A DNA stretch of 64,000 nucleotides from contig OZ004586.1 in the NCBI GenBank assembly GCA_963924555.1, forward strand, positions 1,736,001 through 1,800,000. The letters run 5' to 3'. The notes below the pieces were generated by a model, which was not told where the DNA came from, made no database searches, and saw nothing but the letters and a program-made list of their open reading frames with translations. This DNA comes from Crambe crambe (Eukaryota; Porifera; Demospongiae; Poecilosclerida; Crambeidae). Positions 34,273 to 59,230 of the stretch are shown piece by piece (position 1 is the stretch's first letter; every line of letters starts with the position of its first letter). The position numbers were made by a program, and so were the translations under genes.

Positions 34273-37200
34273 ATGGGAATGCTAAGTGGTTATCAAGTTA
34301 TCTTAGTACTTTTGATTTTGATGCTGCTCTCCTACAAAGTGACCAAATATTCAGCTGAAGTGGTATTTATAAACGATGATGAAACTCTGGGAAAGTATCT
34401 CTGTCCTCCCAGTGGAACCATCTCTCCAAACACCAGCATGGTACTCAACCAATCCACTTTGACGATCAGAGGAAAGCAATTTTGTCATATCCAAAATACT
34501 TCCAATATAAGAAATGCTTCATCGCAAGATTTCAGTATAATTCAATGCTCTGATGGATCTGGTGGATTTGGGTTTTTCAATGTCACTAACCTCACTATCG
34601 AATCGATTTCATTTTCTGGCTGTGAGAATGTAATCCCAGCTCCTGCTGTGCGTTACATCAATGAATCGAATCACTTTATGTACTACAATGCTACAGAGAC
34701 AATACTTATCCTGAATCACTGCTACAATGTTAAGTTGTATGGACTCCTTTTTGAGTCCACCAATCTAAATGTCTTTAGCATTATCGGAATTAACTTATGT
34801 GGGCTGAACGAAATTGGTGAACTACTAACGTCTAAATTGAGTATCAGTATTGCTACTCTCAACTTGTTGTTTTACTACACCGACAGTGATATAACCTCAG
34901 TCGATTCAGAGTGTGCTTTGTATATAGAGTTTGACGCTTATCCCTGCTGTAAATCAATGCCACCATCCGTTGGAAATGTATTTGGAGATAAACCGAACCG
35001 TATTCCAGTGCCTCAAGTGAATGGGCTTGCAGTAATGCTAACACAGCAAAGGTTCGATGCAACTATTGATATGATCATTACGCCAACTTCTTCACTAAAA
35101 AAACTTTTCTTTGCAACAAAAGTCTCAGTGATGTTCATCAACAGTGTAACTGATTCTCACATCACTTTTCGAGGATTAGCTTTTGACTATTAAAGGATGA
35201 AAAAGTGCCAGAGAATGATTACCTTCCACTGCAAATGAATGTGATATTTTATGAAACTCCTTCTTTTAATATTTCAGTGAATGGTATTAAAAACTCGATG
35301 ACTATACGAAATACTTCACTTGTTCTCTACTCCAATTGTGGATATATAATATCTGGATATGATAGAGTGCTCTCTATAGAGAAGATGTCGGAGAAGATTA
35401 CACATCAAATAACAATGGATAAGGTATCTTGGTGCGGGAGAGAAGCACATGTCAGCAATTCTAACATCCTGAACCTTCAGTTCCTAACTCCACATTTGCT
35501 ACAAGCACGATCACTTCCTGCTAGTGGGCACTTGCATATAGAGATGACTGATATATTCTTGCAGTATGACAGCCAGTATGAAATCCTTCCACAAACCTCC
35601 CTCAGTTTCCTAAATTTCGTCAACATCGAGAATATAACCATGAGTGGTACTAACTACTTTGCAGCCAGTAATGGCGGGTCGTTTTTGAATGCTGTCTCCA
35701 GTAACTTGATCGTTACTGGGAATTTGACTGTCATTGGTGGTGATGGAATTCAAGGTGGGGGGGATCAGGCTCGAAAGATCCACTTTATATCTGATGGAAC
35801 CTCTTGAAGCTCAATTTCATAACAACACAGCCATTCAAGGAAGTGCTATATATTCGTCAGTCCTTGCACAACCGGAGTGCTCGATACAGATACTCCCAAG
35901 TCGAAGTTACTCTGTGAATAGCATATTTGATATTGAAATAGCACTTTACTTCAAAAATAACAGTGACAAAATGTCTGGCGCTAGCATTTCCTTGTTTGCT
36001 CCTCAATTTGGTTTTTTCTGCACTGAAACGTCTCCAAATTTCCAATTTCTAAACTCCACTTGGGACACTGCAGGTACAATATGCTTATACCTCGCTCATT
36101 GACACAATTTTCAAAGGGATGGATAAATTTGACAAGTATGCATCACTCTCCAATGGTATATGCTCACAGTTGCCCAGGCAGCCATGGAATTGCGAATATC
36201 TCGACGGAATGTATCGATACAAGCCTCTAACTGTTGTAAAATACACATCCAGCTTTCCTGGGGAAAGAGCAATTTCGTTATTCCAAAGAAGCAATGAAGA
36301 ATATACTGTGGCTGAAGTCATGTGCATTTTCCCATACCGAAGAGTCCAATCGGACTACAAGTATCACTTTTTAACGAGAAATGTCTCTACAGTATATCTC
36401 ACATTCCGTAATAAAGTGAGGAAAACCCCTTGTTTTCTCATCATTCTGACAAATACAGATATTCCAGAGCTTTCCCTCTCACTTTTTAAGGTCCAGTTGA
36501 ATGACGGTTGCCCTATTGGATTTTTTCTGTCACCTGAGGGCGTTTGTGGATGCTCAGGGCTGAGGAGCCGTGGATACACATGCAACATCGACACACGAAT
36601 CTTTTCCAGCCCTCCGGGTTACTGGACAGGCTATGGACTGGACATTAACCCTAGCTTTGCTAAAATCCTCTTTGCCAGGAATTGTCCACCTAACTACTGC
36701 GACCCTGATTTCACTCTGAATAACTCCATTACCGATCTATCCTGCCTCAACAACCGCACTGGAATCTTATGTGGTCAGTGCAAGGAGAATTACAGTGCAG
36801 TATTTGGATCTGATGTCTGCTATGACAACTGTACTGATCTCTATCTCTTCACTCTCCCAATGTATGCTATAGCCGGACTCATTCTAGTAGTACTTCTCTT
36901 TGCATTACGACTCACTGTAGCCACAGGCACTATCAATGGGATCATATTCTATGCTAACGTGTTGGGCCTACTTATGGATGAATTGACAAGAGGTTACTCT
37001 GGTACTTACCTGGCATTCTTTCGTATTGTTGTCTCACTACTCAATCTGAACCTTGGTTTTCCACTCTGCTTCTATAAGGGAATGACTACTACTGCTAGAG
37101 TAGGATTCCAGTTTATATTTCCAGTGTATCTATGGAGCATTATCATTGGGATGATCATCATATCGAAGTATTCCATAAGGGTTTTCTGCTTGATATCGAA

Positions 37201-37923
37201 ATCCTCAGTGCAAGTCTTGGCTACCCTTTTCTATCTTTCTTTTTCTAAACTCTTACAAACAGTGATCGATGTGGTTGTGCATTCCACACTTGACTTGGTG
37301 ATAAGTGATCCCAGTAATTTGTCACTTTATACTTCTTCGGAAAGGATTGTATGGCCCTTTAGTGGTGAAGATTACGGCCATGATATTCATGCTCTTTATC
37401 TAGCTCTTGCTGTTGCTTTCATTGTTTTATTTCTGTTACCTTATGCCATTCTCGTCACCTTCTCTTACTGCTTGGTGAGGTTCAAGCTGGTTAACAAATT
37501 CAAACCTATCATCGACGCTTATGGTGGTCCTTTCAAGGATAAGTTGAAGTTCTGGTTTGGACTCCATCTCTGGATTACCATCATCCTCTTCATCATCAGT
37601 GGCGCTCTGCAGGGAACTAACACTAACACTCTTTTGATCTTCACACTCGTAATTCTGCATCTTTTTATTCTATTTCAAGCTCTCCTGCACCCTTTCTAAA
37701 AACTCTTCATTGAAATACTAGATGTATTCTTCATGCTGAACTTCTGGCTTATACTTGGGTTTTACTTAGTTGCTCATTCTATCTTCCTTGGCGTCTACAC
37801 CTTCTTTCTGAGCTTAGCAATTCTTGCACTATTTCTGATACTGATTTTTCATTGCTGCTATGCAGTTTTGAGAAATTCAAGGATCTCGCATCGAATCAAA
37901 GCCAGGTTTTTTCAAGAGGCGTG
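34273..37923 (+). pseudogene. Multi-pass membrane protein with large Asn-rich ectodomain, frame-disrupted
   Basis: Start MGMLSGYQVILVLLILMLL is a signal peptide. A region of about 600 residues rich in NxS/T sites and beta-helix-like segments follows, then a Cys-rich linker (GCSGLRSRGYTC; NRTGILCGQCKENYS) and about ten hydrophobic helices, including TGTINGIIFYANV and VQVLATLFYLSFSKLL. It resembles an uncharacterised invertebrate membrane-protein family I know only by this C-terminal pattern. Lesions: frame change at about 35191-35200 (after GLAFDY), slip in the poly-G tract at about 35756-35762, frame change at about 36075-36085, and in-frame TAA at 37697-37699 after LLHPF, with homologous-looking sequence continuing to TGA at 37921. 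No introns are seen. Four lesions argue for a pseudogene, though errors in poly-G are possible. Confidence 0.65.
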
Positions 37924-37968
37924 AAGCAAGCAGGTAGCCAAAGGCTTGAAGAGGAGGACAGTTATGTA

Positions 37969-38145
37969 TGGAAGCCGAGAAGGGCAATTTTTCACCGATT
38001 GACGATCCCGACACTGAAATCCCGACGACGAAATCCCGACGACGAAATCCCGACAACGAAATCCCGACAACGAAATCCCGACAACGAAATCCCGACAACG
38101 AAATCCCGATAACGAAATCCCGACAACGAAATCCCGACAATCTAT
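37969..38145. repeat. 14-bp minisatellite with conserved flank
   Basis: About nine copies of CCCGACAACGAAAT (variants with GACG or GATA), preceded by TATGGAAGCCGAGAAGGGCA and CACCGATTGACGATC. The same unit occurs inverted at 43252-43375 and 43577-43668, the latter with the same flank. Confidence 0.9.
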
Positions 38146-38179
38146 AACCAAGAATTAGGACGGAGGATGGGAAGAATCG

Positions 38180-40113
38180 GGGTCTGACTAAAACACGGAC
38201 CGGACCGGACCACCGGACCACGATAAACTTTTGCGCACGAAGTCAAAAATGCGCATGCGCGCTTGATTGCAAAGATCTGGGACACAGCCTTGGACTTTGG
38301 CCAAAGAGGTACCAAGGCAATACAGTCACTATTCAAAGAAATGACCAGACCTGTGTTTTGGCAGCATCCCATGCAGCCTATGCAAGTCTACTACCCTATG
38401 TGAATGGACACATCCAAGGACAAGAGATGACCAAGGAAGATATCGAAAAGACCCTTCCTGGACCTTGCACCTATCATTGCCACCACACCCACCTGACGGG
38501 GGCAGTTTTCTCATTTTATCAACATTATGATAATAATAATTTCAATAAATAAATTACAATAGAAATTTATTCCCACCTTGCACTTGACTCCTGAGTACTT
38601 GACCAAGGAAGATATCAAAAAGACCCTTCCTGGACCTTCAGAGTCTAGGGTAGATCACTAAGTGAATGATAGGGTACATATGTTGTGTGCTGCAACATAA
38701 TTATAACAAATCTATATACAGTATGTATATATACTGTATGCAGTAGCTATATAATATGGTTTGCTCAGATCGTAGACTTCTACTTATTTTTGATTGCGGA
38801 AGAATGCAATAAGAAACTTGAAAATCGTGTCTACTGTGTGTCAACTTTTTTTTTATACAAGCTCCTACTTGGATGTTCTGAAGTTGAATCTTGGATTAAA
38901 GTAATTGATAAGATAGGTAGCTAACTTAAAACTAATAATTATAGGTGGATATAGCACAGTACAAGAAATTTATCATACCAATATTTTTGGGGTGTCATTG
39001 GATTCTCGATTTTGAGAAGTAGCTATGAGATCAGATAATGATTCATTATTGGGTGACAACATGAAATGCTTACAAAATGTGCAGTAAGTCAAGTAGCTAT
39101 AGCCATAGCTACTCTGTCTATACCACTAGAGGATAATATTTATGTCCACACAGCAAATATTAAATATATCATGACTAAACATCCTAGCTCAAAATGGAGA
39201 TTGTTCTGCTAAAGTGAGTTAAGCTAGCTAGTTGTATGTGTGGAGATCAGTACAGTGTGTTGCCATTAGCCAGTATAGCTATAGCTATTATGGAACTATA
39301 CTTTTATTTTCAAACATGGCCAATGATTGTGGAGTATTTTTGTGCTTAGTAAGTGTTACTAATAGTACAAGCTCTAGCTATAATTATGCATATTACTGTT
39401 ATGATAATAGTATGCACGCTACCAGGCTCTAAACTGGCCATTCACCTTCTCTCAGGTGGGTTGATTTAATAACCATATACTCAGATAACTATTATCATGG
39501 TCTCATTAATTTTATCTCATACAGAATGATATCCATTTGAAAAGGAAACAGATGCAATTAGAAATTGCAAGATTTTGATTTAATAATAATATTAACTAGT
39601 TCAGCAAGTGTGAACTGTAGCTAGCTATGTAGGCTAAGTGTTACAGAAGCAACTTCATTAGTGGTCCATGGTCTGTGATTTTGTCAGCCCCACCTGGCCT
39701 GTGGCAATTCCAATTCAATTCAAGTTTGAATAAGCCGCAGGAGCACAAACAGGTAGGAGTGAAATAAAAATGAGAAAACTGCCCCCGTCAGGTGGGTGTG
39801 GTGGAAAACAGTGCAATGATAGGTGCAAGGTCCAGGAAGGGTCTTTTCGATATCTTCCTTGGTCATCTCTTGTCCTTGGATGTGTTCATTCACATAGGGT
39901 AGTAGACTCGCATAGGCTGCATGGGATGCTGCCAAAACACAGGTCTGGTCATTTCTTTGAATAGTGACTGTATTGCCTTGGTACCTCTTTGGCCAAAGTC
40001 CAGGCCTATGTCCCAGATCTTTGCAATCAAGCGCGCATGCGCATTTTTGACTTCGTGCGCAAAAGTTTATCGTGGTCCGGTGGTCCGGTCCGGTCCGTGT
40101 TTTAGTCAGACCC
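38180..40113. mobile_element. Foldback element with inverted arms of about 340 bp
   Basis: Arm 38180-38520 (starting GGGTCTGACTAAAACACGGA) is repeated in inverted orientation at 39766-40113. Each arm carries the same frame of about 55 codons (ASHAAYASLLPYVN.HIQGQE then MTKEDIEKTLPGPCTYHC), on plus in the left arm and minus in the right. The spacer of about 1.25 kb is AT-rich and non-coding, with a partial duplicate of the arm near 38598-38640. No transposase is seen. Confidence 0.8.
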
Positions 40114-43150: not shown

Positions 43151-43251
43151 ATCATACAGTATATATACCCTTGAAGTAACATATTATGAGATGCAGCTCT
43201 ATTTAATGTTCTTATACTTTACTCTTGGGGGGGCGGGTGTGCTAGCCTCGT

Positions 43252-43375
43252 CCGGGATTTCGTTGTCGGGGTTTCGTTGTCGGGGTTTCATTGTCGGGAT
43301 TTCGTTGTCGGGATTTCGTTGTCGGGATTTCGTTGTCGGGATTTCGTTGTCGGGATTTCGTTGTCGGGATCGGGA
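43252..43375. repeat. 14-bp minisatellite, inverted block 1
   Basis: Eight to nine copies of GTCGGGATTTCGTT, the reverse complement of the array at 38 kb, followed by CTCGGCTTCCATA. Confidence 0.9.
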
Positions 43376-43576
43376 CTTCAATCGGCCCTTCTAGCTCGGC
43401 TTCCATAATTCTGTCTACCATCCAGGTGTTTTTTGAAGCAGTGGGCTCAAATCTGGAGTCATTCTTTCATAACTATACTTGGTACTGCTTTGTTATGTTA
43501 TATACAAGACAGTTACATCCTGGAATCTACTCTATTCTAGCTATATAACTATGTTACTGGGCTGGCCGGGGTGTTG

Positions 43577-43668
43577 GCTGTCGGGATTTCGTTGTCGGGA
43601 TTTCGTTGTCGGGATTTTAGTGTCGGGATCGTCAATCGGTGAAAAATTGCCCTTCTCGGCTTCCATAG
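43577..43668. repeat. 14-bp minisatellite, inverted block 2
   Basis: Three copies of the unit followed by GATCGTCAATCGGTG and TTGCCCTTCTCGGCTTCCATA, which is the exact inverted context of 37969-38060. Confidence 0.85.
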
Positions 43669-45889: not shown

Positions 45890-46140
45890 TCATCTCATCA
45901 AGATCATCATATCGAAATATTCTATAAGGGTATCTAATTTAATATCGAAGTCATCAGTGCAAGTCTTGGCTACCCTTTTCTATCTTTCTTTTATAGACAG
46001 TGATAGATGCGATCAGTTCCTCCAACACTTCAGAAAGAAGAATGTGATTTAATACTGGTGAAGATTATGGCCATGGTATTCATGCTCTTTATCTAGGTCT
46101 TGCTATTGCTTTCATTGTTCTATTTCTGTCCTCTTTGAAT
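45890..46140 (+). pseudogene. Deleted second copy of the multi-pass membrane protein gene
   Basis: About 45905-45990 encodes IIISKYSIRVSNLISKSSVQ then VLATLFYLSF, nearly identical to 37155-37247. After a deletion, 46055-46135 matches 37365-37440 (GTGAAGATTATGGCCATG, HALYLGLAIAFIVLFL). Only two short islands of the approximately 3.6-kb gene remain. Confidence 0.8.
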
Positions 46141-46602: not shown

Positions 46603-49600
46603 TCATTTTTTCCTTTTTTTATTCATTTTTTCATTCTTCACAGGATAATAAGATGTCATTATTCCTCCTTTCTCATCTTTCTTTGGTTCACTGAAATGTT
46701 TACAACCTTGGAATTCCTCATAAATAATTTGAGACCGTTGTTCATCAGGGTTGTGGTCCATGGATTTTTTGATTTTTCTATTTATGCTTGCATCACCAAG
46801 CCTTAGGTTGCCTGGTGCACTGTACAAGTACTTTTCAAGTTCCTTACGATCAGAATCGTTCTTCTTGTCAGGTTTAGAAAATGATTTTACAATCTCTCTT
46901 GCTCTGGAAGCACCCTTGATATAATTTTGATCATTCTTATATACGTTGAGGAAAATTTCTCGACCTTTGCTCTTATTAAAAATGGATCTTTCTTCTTGTA
47001 CATCTTCAATTGTAGGCAAAAAGAAGTTTACAAGTTTATTCAAAGAGTCGACTCCACCTCCATTGGTCTTCGAACCATCATTAATAATACTCAACATATC
47101 ATTCCAAGAGAGAATGTGACAAATGTCTAGATTCATGTATCTTAATCCACTTTTACCATCTGGATTAAAACGATTCCAATTCTCCAGGCCTGAAATCCCT
47201 TGTACCTCTTCTCCATATGCCTTTAAGAATGGGTATACAGGACTCCACCATTGTGGCCTTCCAGCTCCTATTAAGGCTATCTCCACATAGTTACGAGCAA
47301 TGCCACTTTTAATGTAATTATAACAAGGATGATTTCTATTTTTACATGCACTGGCTATCTTCTTTCTAATATCCAAGGCGATGTAATCAGTTTTACCAGC
47401 TCCTTTCATTGCAGCATGAATCAAGCAATCATTGCCATGTTGATCAAATGAAAATGATTCTCCGCCGGCAAAGAAATGCCCAGGCTGGCTGCCTTTTCTA
47501 GGAATAAACTTGATTTCAATTGGCTCACCAGTGACATGCTGTTCTTGCATATTAAGCAGTGGTTTGCCATCGTTACTGACAAGTTTAATACGACGACCAG
47601 TTATCATTTCAAGTGTTGGTATTGCATATGCTGGGCCAAGTTCAACACTGTGATGTTCTATCAAATGGGCAAAAACTTTAGGGCTATGTGTGCAGGACAT
47701 CAGCCTAATTAGCTTTCTTTCATATTTGGCAACTATTGAGTGATTTTCTTCATATCTTGCTGTTGATAGTTTACGTTCATATTTCTTGAGTTGTCTCATA
47801 TCCATGTGGCTTTTAATTTTGTGTATCACAATCTCCTTACCCCATATGATGGAATGTTTTTTCAGCTCTTGTCCCACTATCTGTAAACATGTAGTTACTA
47901 TTGTTCTTCCACGCTGGCTAATTCCCTGGCTCAAATATTGTTTCATTTCACTCAATTCTTTTTTTAAGATTTCCTTACAAGCTTTTGGATTAAGTAACCC
48001 TTTGTCACGCTCAGTAACTATATGTTGATCGAGTTCTTGTATCAGTTCTTTCTTAAGCAAATCCATCTTCTCCTTAACCAGGCCAATTTTTATTGTTTCT
48101 GTAATAAGTGGAGCGAAACGACTTGCATATCCAATACCTTTCATGAGTCCTTTGCCCTTAATCTTTTTGTTGGCCATCTGTAGGTGTTTTGAAGCACTTC
48201 CATATGCTTGAGTAGCTACATTTGCTCCTATTTGTAGTTTGCTTTCAATATAATCCCAAATTTCCAAAAATGTTTTTCGTTGCATCACACGTGTCAAGAT
48301 TTGGTGGAGACACTTCTCTGCCTTTTCTGTATTTTGTTTTGTTAAAAAAGCAGTAACTTTTCCTGTGAACTCTTCATCTTCAGTCATGTTATCAAATGAG
48401 TCAACAATACATTGGCTGAGGCCATCAATCGATTGTGACATTTCTTCAACAATCTTATTACATGCAAGATTTATTCCTGCATCTACTGCAGCGCCTGCAG
48501 CCTTTTTGACTATCTTTTTGCATACTTGTTTTGTCATTACTTTACCTAAGCTCTTCCCCGTTTGTTTAGCAGTAGACTTGGCCACTTCTTTATTAGCATT
48601 GCCAAAGGCTTTGTAAGCATACCTGGAAGCTTCAGTCCCCCTAGCTAAATAGGCACCAATTCCTGCAGTAGCTATTGTAATGGCCACACTCATTTTTTTA
48701 TGCTCAAAGTATTGCGACCAATTACAATGTCCTTGAACTAGGCCTTGAATTCCAAATATCATGTCCGATACTCCCTCACTAATGAGACCATTACATACGA
48801 ATGAGGCACTTCCAGGAGAAGCCACCAGCAAAACTGCCCCCACTGCAATTTGAGCCACTCCAATAGCAATGACACTCAGAGAAGTGAAGATGGATTTCCA
48901 AGACCACTTTTGTTCTGCTAGGTTGATAACAAGGTCACACTGATTGTCCGAGAACCACCCCAAAACATCTTGCTTGTCTTGAATACTATCTTCAAACACA
49001 TCGGCTAGCCTTCTCAGTGATATTTCTGGGGTCTCTAATTCCAGTATGGTGCTTTGCTGATTCTTAAGGGTGCGTGTGGCATTGCTTCTAAATTGGTTCA
49101 TCAACAGCACAAAGTTTTCCACCCCCAGTCTTTCAGTATCAGTCAAGAATTTGGTTGATTCAATCATTTTTTTATATTGTTCTAGAGTTAATTCCTGAAT
49201 TTTCTTATGTTTAAGATACTGGTTCAATATTTTCCTTTTAATTTTCAATTTACTGCATTTATTGTCAATTTCTTTACTAGTCTTCTTCATCTTAAACCCT
49301 TTGATTACTGCATATAGACATAAATCATCATGGAGAACATGGCTTTGATTTGAGGCAAGTACTCTGGGTGAGTTACTGAGTGTCTTAAAGTCCACTTCCA
49401 GTTTGAGCGTGAGAAATTTTCGCATCTGATCTCTATCCTCTGTAGGAAGTGAATCAGCTTTGAGTAGTTTGGATTCAATTTCTTCTATAGGCTTGCAGAT
49501 TTTGTATTTTCCATTGGTTTTGGCTTTAGACACAATATCCAATGATTCCAGCTTTTGCAGTTGAGCTTTACTTATCATGGGTACTTCTTTCTTGAAATCA

Positions 49601-52600
49601 ACAGAGTCGTCACTTTCCACCTGATAACTTGACTCAATAAATTCCTGTTGATGTACAATTGCTACAAAGTGGTTTCCTTGCTGCCATATAGCCACATGCT
49701 TCCCTGAAGTGAACCGTCCATCAGAAGTATCCCCATATAAGATAGGGCCATCACTTGATGCAATAAACCCTGACACCCTTCCTATTTCAGAGGAACACTT
49801 ATCATTTACACATGCAAGAACTTCACTTGCTATTTCATCATCACAGTGTAGCATGCCACTCAAGTCTAAGTGTGGATGCTTCTGTTTCACAGAATTTCGT
49901 ACAGTATTAGCTTCTTGGAAGTTTGGAGTATGGTAGTCTCGTTTAGCATGCTGGATCATGGCATTGATCATGCAGTTGAGTCCACTACCAGAAACATCTG
50001 TGGCTCTCAGGTTATTATCCATCAATTGCTCTCTGAACTTACCATTAAGGGCTTCAGTAGGAACATGGTCTCTAATATTTGGAAAATCTTCAGATTCTGG
50101 AATGAAAGCAGATTCAGGAGCAGATTCAATGATGTGGCCATGGTTAACCTCTCCTTCAGAGGATACATTGGCATTTGGATTGAGAGAGATGAGTACATCA
50201 ACCACAGAATTTTGGGTAGTTGCTTCATTGCTAGCATTAGAGTCAGAAAGTTCTTTTTCTGCATCAATTTCTGCACAGTCATGCAAATGATCAAGAATGA
50301 AACGATAAATAGTGTGATGCCACAGGGTATCCTTTATAGCTTTGTAATATTTCACACATGAGTCTTGTAGAGGTATTTCTAATGGCTTCACAAGGTCTAA
50401 ATCCATCAGTTGTCCTTCACTACTCAAAATGTGTTTCTCCTTCAATAGAGAGTAAATATGCTCTTTTTCCTCTTCTTTAAGCCCCTCTATCCAATCAAAT
50501 GAGTGAATGTCTAAACAATCCCAGGATTCTAATTGCACTTTGTCAATATCAGTTGATGGGTTCCAATAGCCAATCAATTCATCTCTTAAAGCTATACCTT
50601 TGGCTACCTCTTCATCTGATAGTGGTAAAACAGTTTTTGTTTCTCTTGTGATCAGATTTTTCTCCTTCAACAGGCTCCAGAATTTTTCCTTGTCAGGAAG
50701 AACTCCAATGAAATCATCTCTACTCACTTCCTTCCCTTCCCTTCTCAAATATTTAACCTTCTCTCTTATCTTGACTTCATATGTGAAGTAGGACTCATTG
50801 CTAGATAACAAACTGTCCAGTCTCTTGCAGTAATTTTTAGCAATGCGAGGATGTTTGAGGGAAAATTCCTCTTGTACTATCTTGAATAAAACCCAAGCCC
50901 CTTCTTCTCCCCAGTCAGTGTGGTCAAACATATTCAGAGTAATTTCTTTGCCAATAATATCCTGCATGCTAGAAATAAACTGGCTATATAGCTCTATCTC
51001 ATGTTGTTTCTGCTCTTGGAAATACTGAACATTTCCTGTTAAAGTTTGATTTTGGTGTCTGTTAGCTAGCTGAAGCATTATTGCATGAGTTTGGCATTGT
51101 CTTATCTTGTGTTGAAACAGAGGAATTATTTCATAAAAAGTTTGCTTGAGTGCTATTTTTCCTTTGTTGTTCGTATTTAGTTGAGCAGCTGCTAAGTAAT
51201 AAGATGCAAAAGGATCATTAGAAACCATGGCAGCTTGCTTGTACAAACTAACAGCCTTTTCAAAGTCAGGTTTGTTATTAGCATCCTTAAACTTGTTGCC
51301 TCTTTTCAATTCTCGTTTCATGAAAGTGTGTCCAACCTGCATTAAGCGACTAGGTGGCAGCTTATCTATTACGAAATCGTTCAACCTCATCTGTACTTCA
51401 TTCTTAAATGCTAGCAAGATTCGATCTTTCTCACTCTTGGCTTCATGATATGACTTCTTCGGGATAGATTCAATGGCATCAGTGTAGAGGTCCAAGAAGA
51501 AAGCCCAGCAATCCAGGCAGTAGTCTAATACAACCCTACACTCTGGCTCATCTTTATTTTTAAATCTTATTTCACAGTACAGATTCTTGAACTTTTGGAA
51601 AAGTTCTTCCTGGAATTTAATATTTTTAAAATAGTCAGCTTCTATTTCATCAATACGATATGCTTCAGACAAATTTCTCTTTTGTATTGCATTGTTCAGG
51701 TCACCTTCTTTATCGTGGAATATCATTCTACAGCTTCCTGGATCACCACAGCGTGCAGCTCGTCCATATGCTTGTAACTCTACCCGTACATTGGGGGGAA
51801 GGTATGATAAACAAACATGCAATCCACCATTTCGCCTCACTTCATCATTTAGTTTGATATCAGTCCCACGTCCAGCAAGATTAGTTGCAATAATAAGTTG
51901 CCTCGGCTTAAATCTGGCCCTTTCTTCAAGTTTCTCTTGGTGACTACTGAAATAAAGCACTGGGTTCAGATTTTCACCTTCAAAGTTTAAAAAATGATGC
52001 AAGTCTCTCGCTCCTTTAATATCTTCACATATTAGTAGAACTGCACGATTGTTTCGTAACTTCTCCTGAACATCTGAATACACAGCTTGTTCCCACTCTT
52101 CCTTAGTAGAGCAGCACACAGGTAGTTCAATTATCAACCTGGAGGGCTTGTTAGTGGGTATCTCCACTATCAGAGTGTTCTCATAAAGTTGTTTAAACAA
52201 TTTATGTTCACCCAATGTGCCTGTTACACCAATAATGTTCTTGTACCTCTTAAAGAATGAAATATTGGACATGTACACAGCTTTCAGTGATTCTGTTGAT
52301 AGACGCAAGTTGTGCTTCAGCTGCAAGAACTGGTGTAGCCCACTACCCCACTCAGACGACTCTTGTTCAACTCCAGTATCAATGTCCATGATGATAATCC
52401 TAGGGTAGCGATCGCTAGCTGACTCTCGGCGATCAATATCGATAATGTATTCTTTGTTATGGTGAAAATATTTTGCACAAACTGCAGAATGGATCCACGA
52501 CCTCAGGCTCTTCTTAATGAAAGGATGCAGTGCTTTTGGAATTCCCTGAATGAGTGGTTTTGCTTCAATGTGTTGCTGAATAATCATAAGAATCTCATTT

Positions 52601-55600
52601 CGGATGTGCTTTTCTCTCATAAATGTCTCAACACAATCCTTGATGGCAGTGAAATTTGTAGAAGTCAAACAATGATCATTACTATCAATGGTTCCATTTT
52701 TAACAAGAGATTCAAAAATATTTTCAGATTGTTTTTCACTGATCCCTGAAATTTCAGTAAATGTGTTAGGAGCTATAGCACCAAGTAACTTATGCCTCAG
52801 AGCAAAATACAACTCTTCCTGCTCTTGTTCTAAACCAAGGAAATCCTTGGCATTGACAAGTGACCATATCTCTAGGTAGATCTGATCCAAGCAATTCATA
52901 TCAGGCAAGGCATGAGGCAAGTAGAGCATATTTTGTCCCTTGTCAACTAGCATGCTGTCCACCTCATCAACAAACACATTGTCACACCTTCGTTCTGTTC
53001 TAATATCAAGGTCATAAAAATATGTCTCAAGAATGTCTCTTTGAAAGTGACTGATATCACCATAAACTATGTCAGCTTCATAAGCCTTGTGTCGCTTCGA
53101 GAGCTCCTCATGACAGCAATGTGATACACTAATATTGAACAATGCATAGAGTGGTTTTAGATCGGTAGCATCTCGAGTGGCCAAGACAGAAGAGCTGGTG
53201 ACAATATCAACCTTTTCACCAATTAGAACTTTGTAAATGGCCACCATACAAAGAATCATAGTCTTGCCTTCTCCAGTTGAGATCTGCTGCAGCAGTTTTG
53301 TGATATGAACCCCTCCCTGTGCTGAAAGGTTTTGAAAGAACAGAAGACTGGCTACCATTTGAGTGTCTCGGGGTGCTACTCCTTTTTCATTCTTTTCTGT
53401 CTCATAAAATAGAGTAACTCCTCTTCGCATCACTGCAAATGCTTCAATGAGATGAGAATTCTGCAATGATTTCCTACTAGAAACATCCTCTTTGAATTTA
53501 GTAGCCCAGTGACCAATATGATGCTTACTGTACTTATTTATTTTTAAGGAGTTCAATTCTTTTTTCAACTGCTCATCATCCACATTGAAATAAAATTGTG
53601 ATTTACTCTTTTCTTTTTCCTTGATATCAGCAATGTTTTCTTTGATTGCATCCAGTACAGAAAACAAATGCTCTTTAGATGGATGTTGTGACTTTATAGA
53701 CTCAATGATTTCTTCAGCTGTGCATTCCTTGTTTCGCTGTGCCTCCCAATCAAAAGAATGGAGATTATCCAAAGCTTGAAGCAAGGGAGAAACACTGTTA
53801 CCTTCATTGACTTGTTTGCTTCGTTCAATCTGAGAATTAACAATTGAGAAGATCCACTCTTTACTTGAGCATTTTGAGAATAAATCCACCAGTTTATCAC
53901 TGGAAATATCTCTTTGGCTCTGAGACCAGACTAGCTCGACAAACTCAAGTACTTTCTGTTCACCATAGTGTTTCTGCATTTGGTAGATATGGACTAGCAG
54001 CATATCACACACATCGTTATCACGACCAGTCAGTTGTAGAGTGAGTTGCAAATGGAGTTCTCCCAGTTTATGATTCCAGAGTGAAAGCTCTTTGCCAGAT
54101 AATTGGCCAATGCACTTTTGCATGGTGAAAACAGTTTTGAGAAAGAGGGCATCAACTTCTTGAGAGCTGCAGTATTGTTCAACTCTATGTTCAGTAATAT
54201 GTGGTAAAAACATACCAGTAGAGTCAATGATTTCTGAATCGATGAGGTCACTGAAAATATAATCAGCATCTTTTATCCCTATTTGTGTCATACCTTGTTC
54301 TGTGACTAGAGAGCAAAGGTTTTGATCAATGAATATAGAACACATTCTTTTCAATGCTTCCAAGAGATTCACTTTAAAGCTGGTACTCCTTCGGAAGGTT
54401 TCTTGCAGAAATTCCATGTAAATGGTGCAATAGAGTGACTTATCATAGCATTGTGATAAACCATCAATTTTTGTCTCAATTTTAGCAACAAAATTAGGGT
54501 CGTGATCATTATATTGTTTCTGTACTGTAGACAAAATTAACTTCTCCACCCAGAGAGAAGGAGGTTGGAATGAGAATACATCAAACTGAATATCCCTAGC
54601 TGTGCATGCTTGTTGCAGCAATGCAGCAAGTTGGTACTTATACTCATTCTTAGGGAGAGATACTTTATTAAGAAAATTTTTAATCTTTTTATCATTAATA
54701 CCCTTAATAAAAGTTGCTTCAATATCTTTCCATATGCTTTTTATATCAAGTTTGCTTATGAGGAGAGCTTCAGGAAAATTAATAGCTTTTCCATTTAGCA
54801 TCACTTCCAAATTCTGGAGGTTAATTTTGAAAGTATCATGCCTGGATATGACATGAACTTCATGTTCTCTTGGCAGATATTTAATATCTACTATTGGATA
54901 TGATTCTTCCTGGTAAAAGATGAAACCTCCCTTGTAAGAACCAAGTTCCTCTTTTTCTGAGAGGAAATTTTCACAGAATAAATTTTCTAGTTGTGCTCTC
55001 TCTAGTAATATTTTATTGAGCTTGTCTTGGATATAGGTCATGATGAACATAAGATCATGGTCACTGATCGTGCTATGATAAGCTTTGTACTCTCTTTCAA
55101 TAGCCTGTAATATATTGGGAAAATGAAATTTTCCATAACTCTTCTCATTTGCTTCATTGATGAAGACCATTAATATTTCAAGTGCTAATTTTGTCTGTGA
55201 ACTGAGAGGCAAATCAGCACTGCAAGAAGTTTCAAAACCTTTCAGAGGTTTTCTGAATGGAGATATTTTTAAAGATCTTGGATCTCCTTGAAAACATTTG
55301 GCAAATTGTTCATCAATATTTTCAATAGATTCTTGCGAACATAATTTGAGATAAACAGCTACAGCTTTTTTTTGGAACTTCTTATCTGAATAAGTACTGA
55401 TATTCAAAAGGTCTTGATGTGCTTGAGAAAGTTTTGACCATTCATATCTTGGTTTAATATTTTGCTTCATACTTGATATTTTGGTATGAAAATCTGGTCT
55501 GGGAGCTTTATTTTCTGCTATATGTAAGAGGTTAAGAGTGTTTTGAAGTGATTTCTTCCGATCCAGATGAATCAGAAAAATAGGGTTATATACACTCTCC

Positions 55601-57936
55601 ATTAGTTGATAGATATCTGGTAAATGGGTTACCAGTGAACGTGTAGATTCTTTTACAAATGCTTCTTCTATGAGGTTTTCCAATCTTGAGTACACCTCTT
55701 GTATTGAATCTTTTTCACTAATTTTTTCTTTGTCAGGCACTAATGGATTATCATTTATTTTAGCAATAATTTCAGATGGAAGGCTCAAGTCAGTCAATCC
55801 TAAATCTAATTTCAATATGGACTTTGCATTAGCATTAATAGAAAGGACAGGATTAGAGTCTGATGTGTCATCAAGCCTTTGTATTTGTTTATACTGCTGC
55901 TTCATGTAAGTTGTTTCAAGCTCCTCAAGCTTTTCAAGGAGGTTTCGTTGTATTTCTTCAAGGAATTGAATCAAACAAGAGTTATCTTGCACTTGAAGAT
56001 GCTCATTGGAAAAAATCAGGTATTCCATCTGAGTTTCTGCTTTATTGATAGACATTGATTTAGTTGAGTGAATCACTTCTTCTTCTTGTTCTTGCTCCTT
56101 ACCATCCTCAGCCCTTGAATTATACTTTGTTAGGCAGTAGGGAGGCCGTCTAACTTTAAAAAATTCAATGTAACCATCAGTCATAGTGGAATCAAAATAT
56201 TTGGCAACACTAGGGTCACAGTAATACCAGCCACGATCCAGCCTTGAACTATCTTTTCCAGTCTTTTTCCGGGCATCAATAAATCCAGAATATCTCAATG
56301 GTGTCTTCCAAAAACCATCAACAACCAGATAATCTGTTCTACTTTTAGCTATGTGTCTTTTTCCAGGCTTTCCGGGCTCACCTGCAGTACCATCACAGCC
56401 ATCAACTCGAGAAGACACATTAATTCTATGACTGAGGTTATGGTCAATACCATTCTTCATGAAAATATCAATATGTCCACCTTTTCCTCCACCACCTGCT
56501 CTACCCCCTTTACCAGCATTGCCTCCGTCAGCACTAACTCCATCTACCCCCCTTGAGTACAAGAAAGCATAATTAAATAATCTCTCCTTATAGCCTCTTC
56601 CATAAAGAACTTGGACGCCACCAATTGATTTTCCATATGCTTGACAATTATCCTTACTTTTCACGTTTGGATAGTTTGACTTAATTTTTTCAGTGCAGTC
56701 ATTCACTTCCCATGTAGTGATTAAGTCCAACTTATTAAAAACACCAAATCGGCTGAGATTATCTGATTTGCTACGCTTTGCCTTCCCATCCTGCCCATTT
56801 CCCCCATGTTGCCCATCCCCACCATCACCACCTTTGGAACACAGAGTCAAGAGTTCAGAGTTTTCAATCTCATCAGCACAAATCAGAATATTGCCCCCAC
56901 TCTCTCCTGGCTCACCAGACTTTCCATTCTTCCCATGAGCCCCTGATCCTTTGCCATCACTGGCACGAGAAAGGGTCCAGCAAGATTTTCCATCTGACCC
57001 AGAAACATCTATCTCTCGTTCTCCTGATACAATGAGTTTTGATGCAACAATTACCACATTTTTCACATTGCATTCACTGTAATGTATTGAGGCATCTAAG
57101 TAGAAGCACTCTTTGCACAAGAATTGGACTTCTTTATAGTTACCAGTGCCTAACCAATGAGTCTGATCAGATAAAGAAAGACTGGCTGCTGTAATAGTAA
57201 TAATGGGATGGTTTGACGAGCCTTTTTCTTTGCGCTGAATGATACCATAATGCTTCAAAAGCTTTAAGGCAGCTTCAATATTTTCATCTGATAAGCTATT
57301 CATTCCAATCAAACCTGCAAGGCCAACCTTTTCTGATTTATTTAAAGACCTTTCTTTGCCAATCTTGAGGTACTGAGAAATGTTTTCTTGCATAGATGTG
57401 AGTTTGCAGACCCATTCATATCTAGTGAGTCGTGTTTTCAAGAATTTTGTGAATTCATCTTCCATAGTTAATTCATTTTGCAATTCCTGAGCCAATTCTG
57501 CACACTCTGTCAATACTCCTTTTTTAAATGCAATCACCAAATCATTCACATCCAAATGTGTGGCTGAAGGAAGATCTTTGCACAGACCATTATCAAGATA
57601 TTCAGCTAGTTCTTTGTAATGTTGATAGGAAGGTAAGGAATAATTAATCACAGAAATGATTTTCTGGGAATACTTGCTGAAAAAAGATAGCAAGCTCCCC
57701 TTGCCTGCTATACGAACTACATCTGACATAAGAGAATGCAATTCTTTAACACGTGTATCATCAGAGCAGCTCTCTGTAGACACATGCTTCACAAGTAAAT
57801 GTGGTATCACTTTTGCTATGAGTAGAGACAACTTCCTAAAGTATTCAGAAATTGCAATGGATTTAACAAGCTGTGAATCACCTTCATGATCAGTAATGCT
57901 TGCCAGGGAAAGCTTGAAATCAGGAGTGTCTTCCAT
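46603..57936 (-). CDS. Giant single-exon protein: Gly-rich region, SecA-type ATPase, two Cys-protease-like domains
   Basis: 3777 codons without intron. ATG at 57936 has A at -3 and G at +4. Layout by residue: 1-270 helical; about 300-390 and 465-530 Gly-rich (GGDGGDGQHGGNGQDGK; GKGGRAGGGGKGG); 550-1500 mostly helical. A SecA motor spans about 1500-2090: PRDTQMVAS (about 1520), Walker A STGEGKT with K1558, VDEVDS with D1657/E1658, GVTGTLGEH (about 1903), TNLAGRGTD with G2022-R-G and GRAARCGDPGS from 2058. A short repeat-like helical part follows at about 2212-2260. A cysteine-protease-like domain has GLNCMINA (C2655) and GNHFVAIV (H2756). A hydrophobic Ala/Gly-rich segment lies at about 3025-3160, then a second GNDCLIHAAM motif (C3504). 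The tail ends KKRKK. Known: SecA drives bacterial and plastid export. Here the substrate, partner and location are unknown, and acquisition by ancient transfer is inferred. No TM signal anchor is seen at the N-terminus. Confidence 0.85.
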   Translation of the reverse strand: MEDTPDFKLSLASITDHEGDSQLVKSIAISEYFRKLSLLIAKVIPHLLVKHVSTESCSDDTRVKELHSLMSDVVRIAGKGSLLSFFSKYSQKIISVINYSLPSYQHYKELAEYLDNGLCKDLPSATHLDVNDLVIAFKKGVLTECAELAQELQNELTMEDEFTKFLKTRLTRYEWVCKLTSMQENISQYLKIGKERSLNKSEKVGLAGLIGMNSLSDENIEAALKLLKHYGIIQRKEKGSSNHPIITITAASLSLSDQTHWLGTGNYKEVQFLCKECFYLDASIHYSECNVKNVVIVASKLIVSGEREIDVSGSDGKSCWTLSRASDGKGSGAHGKNGKSGEPGESGGNILICADEIENSELLTLCSKGGDGGDGQHGGNGQDGKAKRSKSDNLSRFGVFNKLDLITTWEVNDCTEKIKSNYPNVKSKDNCQAYGKSIGGVQVLYGRGYKERLFNYAFLYSRGVDGVSADGGNAGKGGRAGGGGKGGHIDIFMKNGIDHNLSHRINVSSRVDGCDGTAGEPGKPGKRHIAKSRTDYLVVDGFWKTPLRYSGFIDARKKTGKDSSRLDRGWYYCDPSVAKYFDSTMTDGYIEFFKVRRPPYCLTKYNSRAEDGKEQEQEEEVIHSTKSMSINKAETQMEYLIFSNEHLQVQDNSCLIQFLEEIQRNLLEKLEELETTYMKQQYKQIQRLDDTSDSNPVLSINANAKSILKLDLGLTDLSLPSEIIAKINDNPLVPDKEKISEKDSIQEVYSRLENLIEEAFVKESTRSLVTHLPDIYQLMESVYNPIFLIHLDRKKSLQNTLNLLHIAENKAPRPDFHTKISSMKQNIKPRYEWSKLSQAHQDLLNISTYSDKKFQKKAVAVYLKLCSQESIENIDEQFAKCFQGDPRSLKISPFRKPLKGFETSCSADLPLSSQTKLALEILMVFINEANEKSYGKFHFPNILQAIEREYKAYHSTISDHDLMFIMTYIQDKLNKILLERAQLENLFCENFLSEKEELGSYKGGFIFYQEESYPIVDIKYLPREHEVHVISRHDTFKINLQNLEVMLNGKAINFPEALLISKLDIKSIWKDIEATFIKGINDKKIKNFLNKVSLPKNEYKYQLAALLQQACTARDIQFDVFSFQPPSLWVEKLILSTVQKQYNDHDPNFVAKIETKIDGLSQCYDKSLYCTIYMEFLQETFRRSTSFKVNLLEALKRMCSIFIDQNLCSLVTEQGMTQIGIKDADYIFSDLIDSEIIDSTGMFLPHITEHRVEQYCSSQEVDALFLKTVFTMQKCIGQLSGKELSLWNHKLGELHLQLTLQLTGRDNDVCDMLLVHIYQMQKHYGEQKVLEFVELVWSQSQRDISSDKLVDLFSKCSSKEWIFSIVNSQIERSKQVNEGNSVSPLLQALDNLHSFDWEAQRNKECTAEEIIESIKSQHPSKEHLFSVLDAIKENIADIKEKEKSKSQFYFNVDDEQLKKELNSLKINKYSKHHIGHWATKFKEDVSSRKSLQNSHLIEAFAVMRRGVTLFYETEKNEKGVAPRDTQMVASLLFFQNLSAQGGVHITKLLQQISTGEGKTMILCMVAIYKVLIGEKVDIVTSSSVLATRDATDLKPLYALFNISVSHCCHEELSKRHKAYEADIVYGDISHFQRDILETYFYDLDIRTERRCDNVFVDEVDSMLVDKGQNMLYLPHALPDMNCLDQIYLEIWSLVNAKDFLGLEQEQEELYFALRHKLLGAIAPNTFTEISGISEKQSENIFESLVKNGTIDSNDHCLTSTNFTAIKDCVETFMREKHIRNEILMIIQQHIEAKPLIQGIPKALHPFIKKSLRSWIHSAVCAKYFHHNKEYIIDIDRRESASDRYPRIIIMDIDTGVEQESSEWGSGLHQFLQLKHNLRLSTESLKAVYMSNISFFKRYKNIIGVTGTLGEHKLFKQLYENTLIVEIPTNKPSRLIIELPVCCSTKEEWEQAVYSDVQEKLRNNRAVLLICEDIKGARDLHHFLNFEGENLNPVLYFSSHQEKLEERARFKPRQLIIATNLAGRGTDIKLNDEVRRNGGLHVCLSYLPPNVRVELQAYGRAARCGDPGSCRMIFHDKEGDLNNAIQKRNLSEAYRIDEIEADYFKNIKFQEELFQKFKNLYCEIRFKNKDEPECRVVLDYCLDCWAFFLDLYTDAIESIPKKSYHEAKSEKDRILLAFKNEVQMRLNDFVIDKLPPSRLMQVGHTFMKRELKRGNKFKDANNKPDFEKAVSLYKQAAMVSNDPFASYYLAAAQLNTNNKGKIALKQTFYEIIPLFQHKIRQCQTHAIMLQLANRHQNQTLTGNVQYFQEQKQHEIELYSQFISSMQDIIGKEITLNMFDHTDWGEEGAWVLFKIVQEEFSLKHPRIAKNYCKRLDSLLSSNESYFTYEVKIREKVKYLRREGKEVSRDDFIGVLPDKEKFWSLLKEKNLITRETKTVLPLSDEEVAKGIALRDELIGYWNPSTDIDKVQLESWDCLDIHSFDWIEGLKEEEKEHIYSLLKEKHILSSEGQLMDLDLVKPLEIPLQDSCVKYYKAIKDTLWHHTIYRFILDHLHDCAEIDAEKELSDSNASNEATTQNSVVDVLISLNPNANVSSEGEVNHGHIIESAPESAFIPESEDFPNIRDHVPTEALNGKFREQLMDNNLRATDVSGSGLNCMINAMIQHAKRDYHTPNFQEANTVRNSVKQKHPHLDLSGMLHCDDEIASEVLACVNDKCSSEIGRVSGFIASSDGPILYGDTSDGRFTSGKHVAIWQQGNHFVAIVHQQEFIESSYQVESDDSVDFKKEVPMISKAQLQKLESLDIVSKAKTNGKYKICKPIEEIESKLLKADSLPTEDRDQMRKFLTLKLEVDFKTLSNSPRVLASNQSHVLHDDLCLYAVIKGFKMKKTSKEIDNKCSKLKIKRKILNQYLKHKKIQELTLEQYKKMIESTKFLTDTERLGVENFVLLMNQFRSNATRTLKNQQSTILELETPEISLRRLADVFEDSIQDKQDVLGWFSDNQCDLVINLAEQKWSWKSIFTSLSVIAIGVAQIAVGAVLLVASPGSASFVCNGLISEGVSDMIFGIQGLVQGHCNWSQYFEHKKMSVAITIATAGIGAYLARGTEASRYAYKAFGNANKEVAKSTAKQTGKSLGKVMTKQVCKKIVKKAAGAAVDAGINLACNKIVEEMSQSIDGLSQCIVDSFDNMTEDEEFTGKVTAFLTKQNTEKAEKCLHQILTRVMQRKTFLEIWDYIESKLQIGANVATQAYGSASKHLQMANKKIKGKGLMKGIGYASRFAPLITETIKIGLVKEKMDLLKKELIQELDQHIVTERDKGLLNPKACKEILKKELSEMKQYLSQGISQRGRTIVTTCLQIVGQELKKHSIIWGKEIVIHKIKSHMDMRQLKKYERKLSTARYEENHSIVAKYERKLIRLMSCTHSPKVFAHLIEHHSVELGPAYAIPTLEMITGRRIKLVSNDGKPLLNMQEQHVTGEPIEIKFIPRKGSQPGHFFAGGESFSFDQHGNDCLIHAAMKGAGKTDYIALDIRKKIASACKNRNHPCYNYIKSGIARNYVEIALIGAGRPQWWSPVYPFLKAYGEEVQGISGLENWNRFNPDGKSGLRYMNLDICHILSWNDMLSIINDGSKTNGGGVDSLNKLVNFFLPTIEDVQEERSIFNKSKGREIFLNVYKNDQNYIKGASRAREIVKSFSKPDKKNDSDRKELEKYLYSAPGNLRLGDASINRKIKKSMDHNPDEQRSQIIYEEFQGCKHFSEPKKDEKGGIMTSYYPVKNEKMNKKRKK

Positions 57937-59230
57937 TATACTGAGTTATAAAAGGTTATGCACTCCAGGGCCCCAGGCCCTAAGACGTATGGTACACACA
58001 CAGGTAGAAGAAAATGGGAAATTCTCAATCTGTTTTCGTTAGGCTGTCTTAACCTATTTATATATCTAGGATAGAAGAAGCTCTGAATCCAGCTGGCATT
58101 GACTATAGTATCGATGATGTATAAGCTGCAAGAGTAACTTGTCAATCATAGAATTCTCTACAGTTTCCACGATTATCTACAGGAAAGATGTAACAGCAAA
58201 CATTGTTACACAATTCACATATAAAAGTACTGAAACAATCATGCACTCTCTGAGATTAATCAATCTACAAGGGAAATTTCAGAGTTATAAATAAGCTAGT
58301 GTATCTAATGTAGACACAGCATCCTATAATGCTCTTAATGCAGTACTTGCTAGGAACCAAGCACATGTAAGAGCCGAAGGGTGCCTACGTAGGCGAGAAC
58401 AACCATTCGGCATGCCACTATGCCAGTTAGAGGTAGCACAGCAGTGAAGCCTAAAATACCCCTTGAACTCCCACCACCACCTTCTGGCCCAATTCATGTA
58501 TTTGAATATTGGCTCCATGAGTAAATAATTTAATATTTCATGATAAGTGAATATGATTAAATAAAGAGAAATGCAATCGTTCAGCGTGTGCTTGCACAGT
58601 GACAAACAACTAGTGGTCACTCTCCTTTAATGCTGATGTTTATGCCAGCAAAGAATCCAGGCCCAGAACGTGTCCAAGTAACCAAGTACTTAAACCTAAC
58701 ATAGATCTACTGTTCAATTGCCAAGTGTCCAATGCTTCTTGAATAATGTTTCCCATTTGTTGTTTATCTGGCAATGATATGCAATAGCTTTGGAATCATA
58801 ACTGGTTATTTGGTTCCATACTGGAACATCACCTTGGGCATTAGAGTCATGATTTGATCCTGCACATTTGAATCTAAGTGTATGTATTTTTGACTCTCCA
58901 CCTGATGATGGGCTAAGTGATGGAATTGGGGTATCATTGGGGTCAGACACACTAAATTCAGTTTCCTACGTATAATGGCATTTAATGATCTATGAAATAC
59001 TCTACATAGCGACGAGTGATTTCTGATTATCTTGTATGTCTTCTCTTCACCCTCCACTTGTAGCTCTTCACTTTCATGTCTCATTTCAATAGACAGAAAC
59101 TGGATGACGTATAAAAAAGGATCGCCAACAGACAGTATGATGAGAAGATCTCTCCAAAAAACGAATGGGAATGGCCATTTTATCCGCGTGTGCATAGTTT
59201 GCATTCCTACGTCACATGACTAAAGCAGTG
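57937..59230. other. Upstream flank of the giant gene
   Basis: Minus-strand frames at 59204-58806 and 58950-58714 (SDPNDTPIPSLSPSSGGES..) could be 5' exons or a separate small gene, but no domain is recognisable and splice links are unclear. I see no confident promoter. Confidence 0.3.

Follow-up and report, generated by a model that had tools for sequence, protein, structure and literature searches.

A giant SecA-like protein encoded by a single-frame gene in a sponge nuclear genome

The nuclear genome of a sponge holds an intron-free gene of 11 kb, open in a single frame, whose product carries a SecA-type motor, with the overall fold and both nucleotide-binding domains indicated by sequence and predicted structure and the ATP-site motifs intact. 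By its sequence relationships, the gene is a member of a little-studied giant SecA-like family common to animals and bacteria. SecA is taught as the motor of bacteria and plastids, and an intact SecA motor in an animal family that extends from sponges to insects and has been exchanged with symbionts contrasts with this textbook picture. The pairing of the motor with a hydrophobic module across bacteria and animals suggests a concrete and testable mechanism, that of a SecY-independent translocator. The protein is probably a conflict or defence protein, and not part of normal protein export.

The gene and its surroundings

The window, the whole 64,000-nucleotide stretch that was analysed (G000:C9:1736001-1800000), belongs to a genome of 143 Mb in 119 contigs. 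The single-frame gene of 3777 codons claimed by the first-pass annotation is present on the minus strand as one open frame (Table 1), a stop-free run whose probability by chance is about 10^-108 at the GC of the window. A long series of exon-sized open frames, resembling tandemly duplicated Ig/FN3 exons by their look, occupies 449-30860 on the minus strand, and short open frames of this appearance are numerous in the parts of the window that neighbour the SecA gene. The mobile elements reported nearby are borne out by a mobile-element-like repeat of about 2 kb at 38180-40113, with 301-nt inverted ends 98% alike and at least 157 matching pieces genome-wide (arms counted apart). Minisatellite arrays of 14-bp period lie in opposite orientation about 5 kb apart, at 37967-38168 and 43226-43667, and direct repeats at 37153-37436 and 45902-46129 show that parts of an open frame lying at 36-37.7 kb are found once more just 3' of the SecA gene.

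Table 1. Features of the giant SecA-like gene, with positions in the window
Feature	Position	Strand	Basis
Single-frame ORF, giant SecA-like protein (copy 1), 3777 aa	46603..57936	-	ATG start, one open frame
Putative TATA-box-like element TATATAAATAG, -128 to -118 from ATG	58054..58064	-	sequence only
Gly-rich module, residues 262-560	56257..57153	-	HMM match in 101/120 listed proteins (count partly by construction)
SecA fold, residues 1413-2205 (model positions 153-945)	51322..53700	-	predicted structure and structure matches
Walker A STGEGKT, residues 1553-1559, K1558	53260..53280	-	motif, alignment
Walker B / VDEVDS, residues 1656-1661	52954..52971	-	motif, alignment
GVTGTLGEH motif, residues 1903-1911	52204..52230	-	motif
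TNLAGRGTD motif, residues 2018-2026	51859..51885	-	motif, alignment
GRAARCGDPGS motif, residues 2058-2068	51733..51765	-	motif, alignment
Candidate cysteine-peptidase-like domain 1, residues 2641-2772 (C2655 ... H2756)	49621..50016	-	HMM, conserved Cys/His
Hydrophobic module, residues 2948-3170, TM-like stretch 3020-3038	48427..49095	-	HMM; also in bacterial long SecA-like ORFs
Candidate cysteine-peptidase-like domain 2, residues 3400-3550, His3487 before Cys3504	47287..47739	-	HMM, alignment

The SecA-type motor

Each of the five motor motifs quoted in the first-pass annotation occurs intact and exactly once in the 3777-residue protein; GRAARCGDPGS is helicase motif VI. Across a 39-row alignment, the columns of Walker A and B, GTG, TN.AGRGTD and motif VI are invariant or nearly so. 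In the Pfam profile search that had been proposed, SecA_DEAD (E 9.1e-35) and P-loop_SecA (2.6e-9) are both over cut-off. SecA_PP_bind (PPXD, the preprotein cross-linking or clamp domain) reaches 13.8 bits against a cut-off of 23.5; in the relative L022 the same model scores 26 bits, over that cut-off. A sequence search of the PDB gave 24 matches at E<=0.01, every one of them SecA, as are the top 28 matches listed between the predicted motor and solved structures, and the predicted SecA match extends into the helical scaffold region. The motor model has a long predicted helix (820-866) followed by helices 873-896 and 903-926, which may correspond to the wing domain and the two-helix finger.

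An ordinary eukaryotic helicase is ruled out by the SecA-only sequence matches in the PDB together with the SecA structure matches. Housekeeping SecA is ruled out as well, by a tree position outside the housekeeping clade and by scores far under the cut-offs of the curated NCBIfam SecA and SecA2 models, where all eight models listed fall below cut-off and the best reaches 191.4 bits against 862.

Residence in the sponge genome

The SecA gene belongs to the sponge nuclear genome, as indicated by host-like codon use, CpG depletion, a contig of 8.8 Mb and a tandem intact paralogue. The comparison of codon use with neighbouring frames, suggested at the outset, gave a host-like result, with a rank correlation of 0.89 between the SecA gene and the window's exon-like frames; for four giant SecA ORFs from bacteria the correlation is 0.58-0.73 against the same frames and 0.66-0.78 against the SecA gene. 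The CpG observed/expected ratio is 0.26 in the gene and 0.32 in the window. COX1, on contig C119 and with TGA read as Trp (table 4), has its best named relative in Demospongiae at 84%, which points to a demosponge-like host and upholds the earlier sponge label.

While the gene proved real as described, further copies were found beside it, one intact and one partial. Copy 2 (3670 aa, C9:1836359-1847371) lies on the same strand about 53 kb away, with homologous flanks and a protein 79% identical to that of copy 1, and lacks about 200 of the final 317 residues. Between the two copies, dN/dS is 0.46 overall and 0.28-0.42 over motor segments, values given without a significance test; it is above the motor values for residues 2611-2780 (0.69) and 3461-3777 (0.72), so that the parts holding the Cys/His domains may be under relaxed selection. 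The third copy (C9:1851680-1853803) is a 708-codon frame that keeps the N-terminal Gly-rich part and matches residues 1-663; a short match to 1799-1830 comes immediately after it, so that most of the motor is lacking. SecA_DEAD matches occur at two places in the genome by profile search. A SecY search of the same genome gave three exon-wise matches at one locus, which is exon-split and Sec61-like by sequence, and did not find a bacterial SecY partner.

Relatives and phylogeny

A protein search with the motor region, within length limits of about 2077-6610 aa, had 5293 candidates, of which 795 matched at E<=1e-3; 120 proteins are listed. The sponge-like set among them comprises P0001-P0025, in which P0002 is the sponge's own paralogue and P0003-P0025 (56-81% identical) bear the label through closeness to the query alone. 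Motor identity to the query is 56-85% in sponge-like rows and about 30-43% in the other listed relatives, whose alignment to the query is mostly confined to a Gly-rich block (262-385), a motor block (about 1270-2440) and a C-terminal block (about 2950-3450); all three also align with the listed Wolbachia relatives. The window protein is not an orphan: giant SecA-like proteins are present in insects, crustaceans, molluscs, rotifers, an echinoderm, a nematode and Wolbachia, the named relatives among those listed being insects, Artemia, an ostracod, Mytilus, bdelloid rotifers, a brittle star, Plectus and Wolbachia. A pike protein bearing SecA_DEAD (Esox lucius P0123, 2348 aa) was found through the C-terminal region query.

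In the GTDB genomes, 258 pattern matches were obtained; 232 of them encode a relative, and 80 were kept. These 80 loci and three viral contigs yielded 36 motor ORFs of at least 1100 aa and 49 shorter ones (47 loci). Sources of the long ORFs are Rickettsiales, Legionellales, Parachlamydiales, Bacteroidota and some further groups, Elusimicrobia and a Myxococcales bin among them; an intracellular life is common in these lineages. Two viral-collection contigs (L089, L090) carry SecA-like ORFs of 3.55 kaa that lie very near Neisseriaceae L037 in the tree and are possibly bacterial or prophage.

Two quick maximum-likelihood trees were built, with SH-aLRT supports. The first has 96 rows chosen from the 120 listed proteins and 83 loci; the second has 71 rows, after removal of 28 on account of long branches, near-duplication or thinning, with P0121 and P0123 retained as additions. 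Protist SecA-like proteins (Tetrahymena, Polysphondylium) are outside both trees. In both, the long SecA-like proteins are separated from housekeeping SecA with support of 99-100. The main animal clade, which includes Wolbachia, has 47 rows and support of 95 in the 96-row tree and 35 rows and support of 97 in the 71-row tree, and sits beside giant SecA-like proteins of bacteria. The phylogeny that the first-pass annotation had called for places the sponge-like rows with animal giant SecA-like proteins, as one group inside the main clade (support 100 in both trees). Wolbachia rows are nested among arthropods in both trees. The trees give no firm branching order for the sponge, mollusc/echinoderm and arthropod groups. 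The Lutzomyia, Darwinula and Esox proteins are placed among the bacterial rows, Esox on a long branch. A topology uniting every P row of the 71-row tree in a single clade (with Esox, Lutzomyia, Darwinula and P0121, the last not established as animal) is rejected (AU p 0.0002), which makes at least two acquisitions likely.

Modules outside the motor

A Gly-rich module and a His/Cys domain at the C-terminus are frequent additions in the animal members. Since the module HMMs derive from sequences within the set of 120 listed proteins, counts among these are partly by construction: the hydrophobic module matches 104 and domain 2 matches 94 of them, and outside P0001-P0025 (95 proteins) the numbers are 79 for the Gly-rich module, 83 for the hydrophobic module, 74 for domain 2 and none for domain 1, which is found in 21 of the 25 sponge-like proteins. 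The bacterial counts do not share this dependence. Among the bacterial and viral motor ORFs of at least 1100 aa, the hydrophobic module is found in 23 of 36, a number that includes L074 and L014 from a single contig, L016 and L017 with no difference in the motor, L048 (1123 aa) from the housekeeping SecA group, and several ORFs truncated where their contigs end. HMM searches found the Gly-rich module and both Cys/His domains in 0 of these 36, and any of the four modules in 0 of the 49 shorter ORFs. Beside the long SecA-like ORF of a Legionellales locus (L033:6294-7274), an adjoining ORF matches the animal Gly-rich module at E 1e-14, perhaps because a single gene has been split in two or because of a transfer.

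Within the hydrophobic module, a TM-like window is present in 108 of 127 module-bearing proteins, against 0.25 windows per 1000 aa elsewhere; none was found in Wolbachia protein P0029. A strongly hydrophobic start was not seen in the window protein, as judged without a signal-peptide predictor. A search of the open-licence PMC literature found no paper on this pairing of hydrophobic module and motor in animals and bacteria, or on the sponge gene.

The two candidate cysteine-peptidase-like domains were defined by conserved residues. In domain 1, Cys and His are both kept in 7 of 7 typed rows; in domain 2, the candidate catalytic residues are kept in 87 (Cys3504) and 76 (His3487) of 96 aligned rows, representing 95 proteins. 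Six pieces searched against Pfam at E up to 5 gave no match for either domain. PDB profiles gave no credible match, with one weak, unrelated-looking match to domain 2 (E 0.042) and seven to domain 1 at E 0.43-1.4. The predicted C-terminal model is weak (mean pLDDT 61) and has only middling helical structure matches; the matches listed fell on other parts, and the lack of OTU among them is not evidence of absence. An OTU identity for the two domains, suggested by motif order, was not confirmed by Pfam, PDB profiles or structure search. With residues 2930-3560 as query, in a search that could not find proteins below 2077 aa, all 21 proteins found (query included) carry SecA domains, and three of them are outside the sponge-like set.

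Eight relatives (L011, L013, L015, L022, L089, P0029, P0121 and P0123) were scanned with Pfam over their whole length, and three have a payload-like domain over cut-off. P0121 has Endonuclea_NS_2 at 2748-2840 of 2986, just over cut-off; L089 has a WHH/colicin-DNase domain at its very end; and L011 has an internal ADP-ribosyltransferase-like stretch (2245-2369 of 3274), over cut-off for Pertussis_S1 (22.0 against 21.3 bits) and under it for Scabin-like (23.0 against 27). The same scan gave no payload-like domain in L013, L015, L022, Wolbachia P0029 or pike P0123, and the window protein has no payload-like Pfam match. Polymorphic toxin systems have a variable payload at the C-terminus behind a conserved core; of the three domains over cut-off, the one in L011 lies internally. 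Precomputed domain tables add a nuclease (Endonuclea_NS_2) in P0116 and P0122 and UCH (PF00443) in P0097.

Possible function

The best explanation, to which we assign a probability of about 0.48, is a motor of the cytosol that pulls polypeptide and moves or displays a payload of its own in conflicts between host and microbe, by a mechanism that we infer; the estimate is slightly lowered by payload domains over cut-off in only three of eight scanned relatives and by a tie between C-terminal region and motor in just three proteins that are not sponge-like. The giant protein would be made in the cytosol, where ATP cycles of the motor would pull polypeptide through the clamp. The hydrophobic module could then anchor or insert the protein at a membrane, be it that of a bacterium-containing vacuole, of a host organelle or of the bacterial surface. 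At this site the peptidase-like payload of the C-terminus would be translocated or exposed and would cleave proteins, ubiquitin-like or other. The likely role would be defence against intracellular microbes, or that of a domesticated microbial effector. Counting against this reading are the lack of Pfam and credible PDB matches for the peptidase-like domains, the weak C-terminal model, the raised dN/dS of these parts, the residues missing from the end of copy 2 and the clamp domain under its Pfam cut-off. It is also conceivable, if quite improbable, that a single chain combining the motor, a membrane-inserting stretch and an enzymatic payload makes up a self-contained, SecY-free delivery machine, used by intracellular bacteria on their hosts, taken up by animals at or before the divergence of sponges from other animals and turned against intracellular microbes. 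No published function for the animal family with an intact SecA motor was found in the open-licence PMC literature; the sponge offers two close natural copies for testing.

A less likely alternative is a cytosolic protein-remodelling ATPase that unfolds or extracts tagged proteins like a segregase, its peptidase-like domains trimming the tags, with no link to membranes or microbes. The intact motor, the candidate Cys/His domains and the absence of a strongly hydrophobic start would all suit such an enzyme, but the TM-like module recurs with the motor, nuclease and ART-like domains are present in a few relatives, and there has been exchange with Wolbachia, according to the quick trees and the available text of PMC3639933. 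Another reading, rather unlikely in our judgement, is that of a selfish or conflict gene that moves between symbionts and hosts and is kept by repeated transfer and duplication without a fixed host function. Wolbachia rows nested within arthropods, the rejection of a single clade and tandem copies with a partial third lacking the motor are consistent with it; against it stand two intact 11-kb frames diverging at the overall dN/dS given above and one main animal clade that takes in the sponge-like rows.

A role in export at the ER, as a SecA motor partnered with Sec61, is very improbable: the SecA fold match does reach the helical scaffold and the genome has a Sec61-like gene, but the protein is outside the housekeeping clade, far under the NCBIfam cut-offs, and giant, with extra modules. 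An assembly chimera or contamination by symbiont DNA, which would agree with the ultimately bacterial origin of the motor, is ruled out for practical purposes by the long contig, the tandem paralogue with homologous flanks, the codon use and the CpG depletion; in addition, the nearest relatives listed are other sponge-like proteins, and the sole SecY-family locus found is exon-split and Sec61-like. The earlier proposal of a transferred motor remodelled into a new system is partly supported: the SecA motor is real, but the family is not new, having been described in 2013 (PMC3639933, available text).

Comparison with known systems

The available text of PMC3482391 lists SecA-like domains among Amoebophilus effectors, and that of PMC8195603 mentions them in giant actinobacterial toxins; the domain is held in common, whereas here it belongs to an animal gene. 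The phage WO eukaryotic association module holds SecA genes more like invertebrate than bacterial proteins, according to the available text of PMC5062602; the SecA domain is again shared, but those genes are located in a symbiont prophage and the present one is nuclear. OTU domains can be sequence-permuted, as in the deubiquitinase EschOTU (PMC7396840, available text), and the His-before-Cys order at residues 3400-3550 would fit a permuted OTU, although no sequence or structure match was obtained.

With bacterial housekeeping SecA and SecA2, the sponge protein shares the motor fold, the ATP motifs and its best PDB matches; it differs in its length of 3777 aa, its extra modules, its separate clade, its scores under the NCBIfam cut-offs and the lack of a bacterial SecY locus in the genome search. 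Giant secA genes were the subject of a 2013 paper on Wolbachia by Duplouy et al. Its available text (PMC3639933) describes giant secA genes in Wolbachia wBol1-b, among them wBol1_1092 of 11,829 nt, with full-length matches in insects, giant SecA-domain proteins also in Harpegnathos and Daphnia, and SecA-like proteins named in Tetrahymena and Polysphondylium; the eukaryotic secA clade is apart from prokaryotic secA, with little evidence of true introns. The sponge protein is the same as these giant eukaryotic and Wolbachia proteins in its length, single frame, SecA domain and position apart from prokaryotic SecA. Unlike them, the sponge branch has candidate domain 1, seen only in the sponge-like set.
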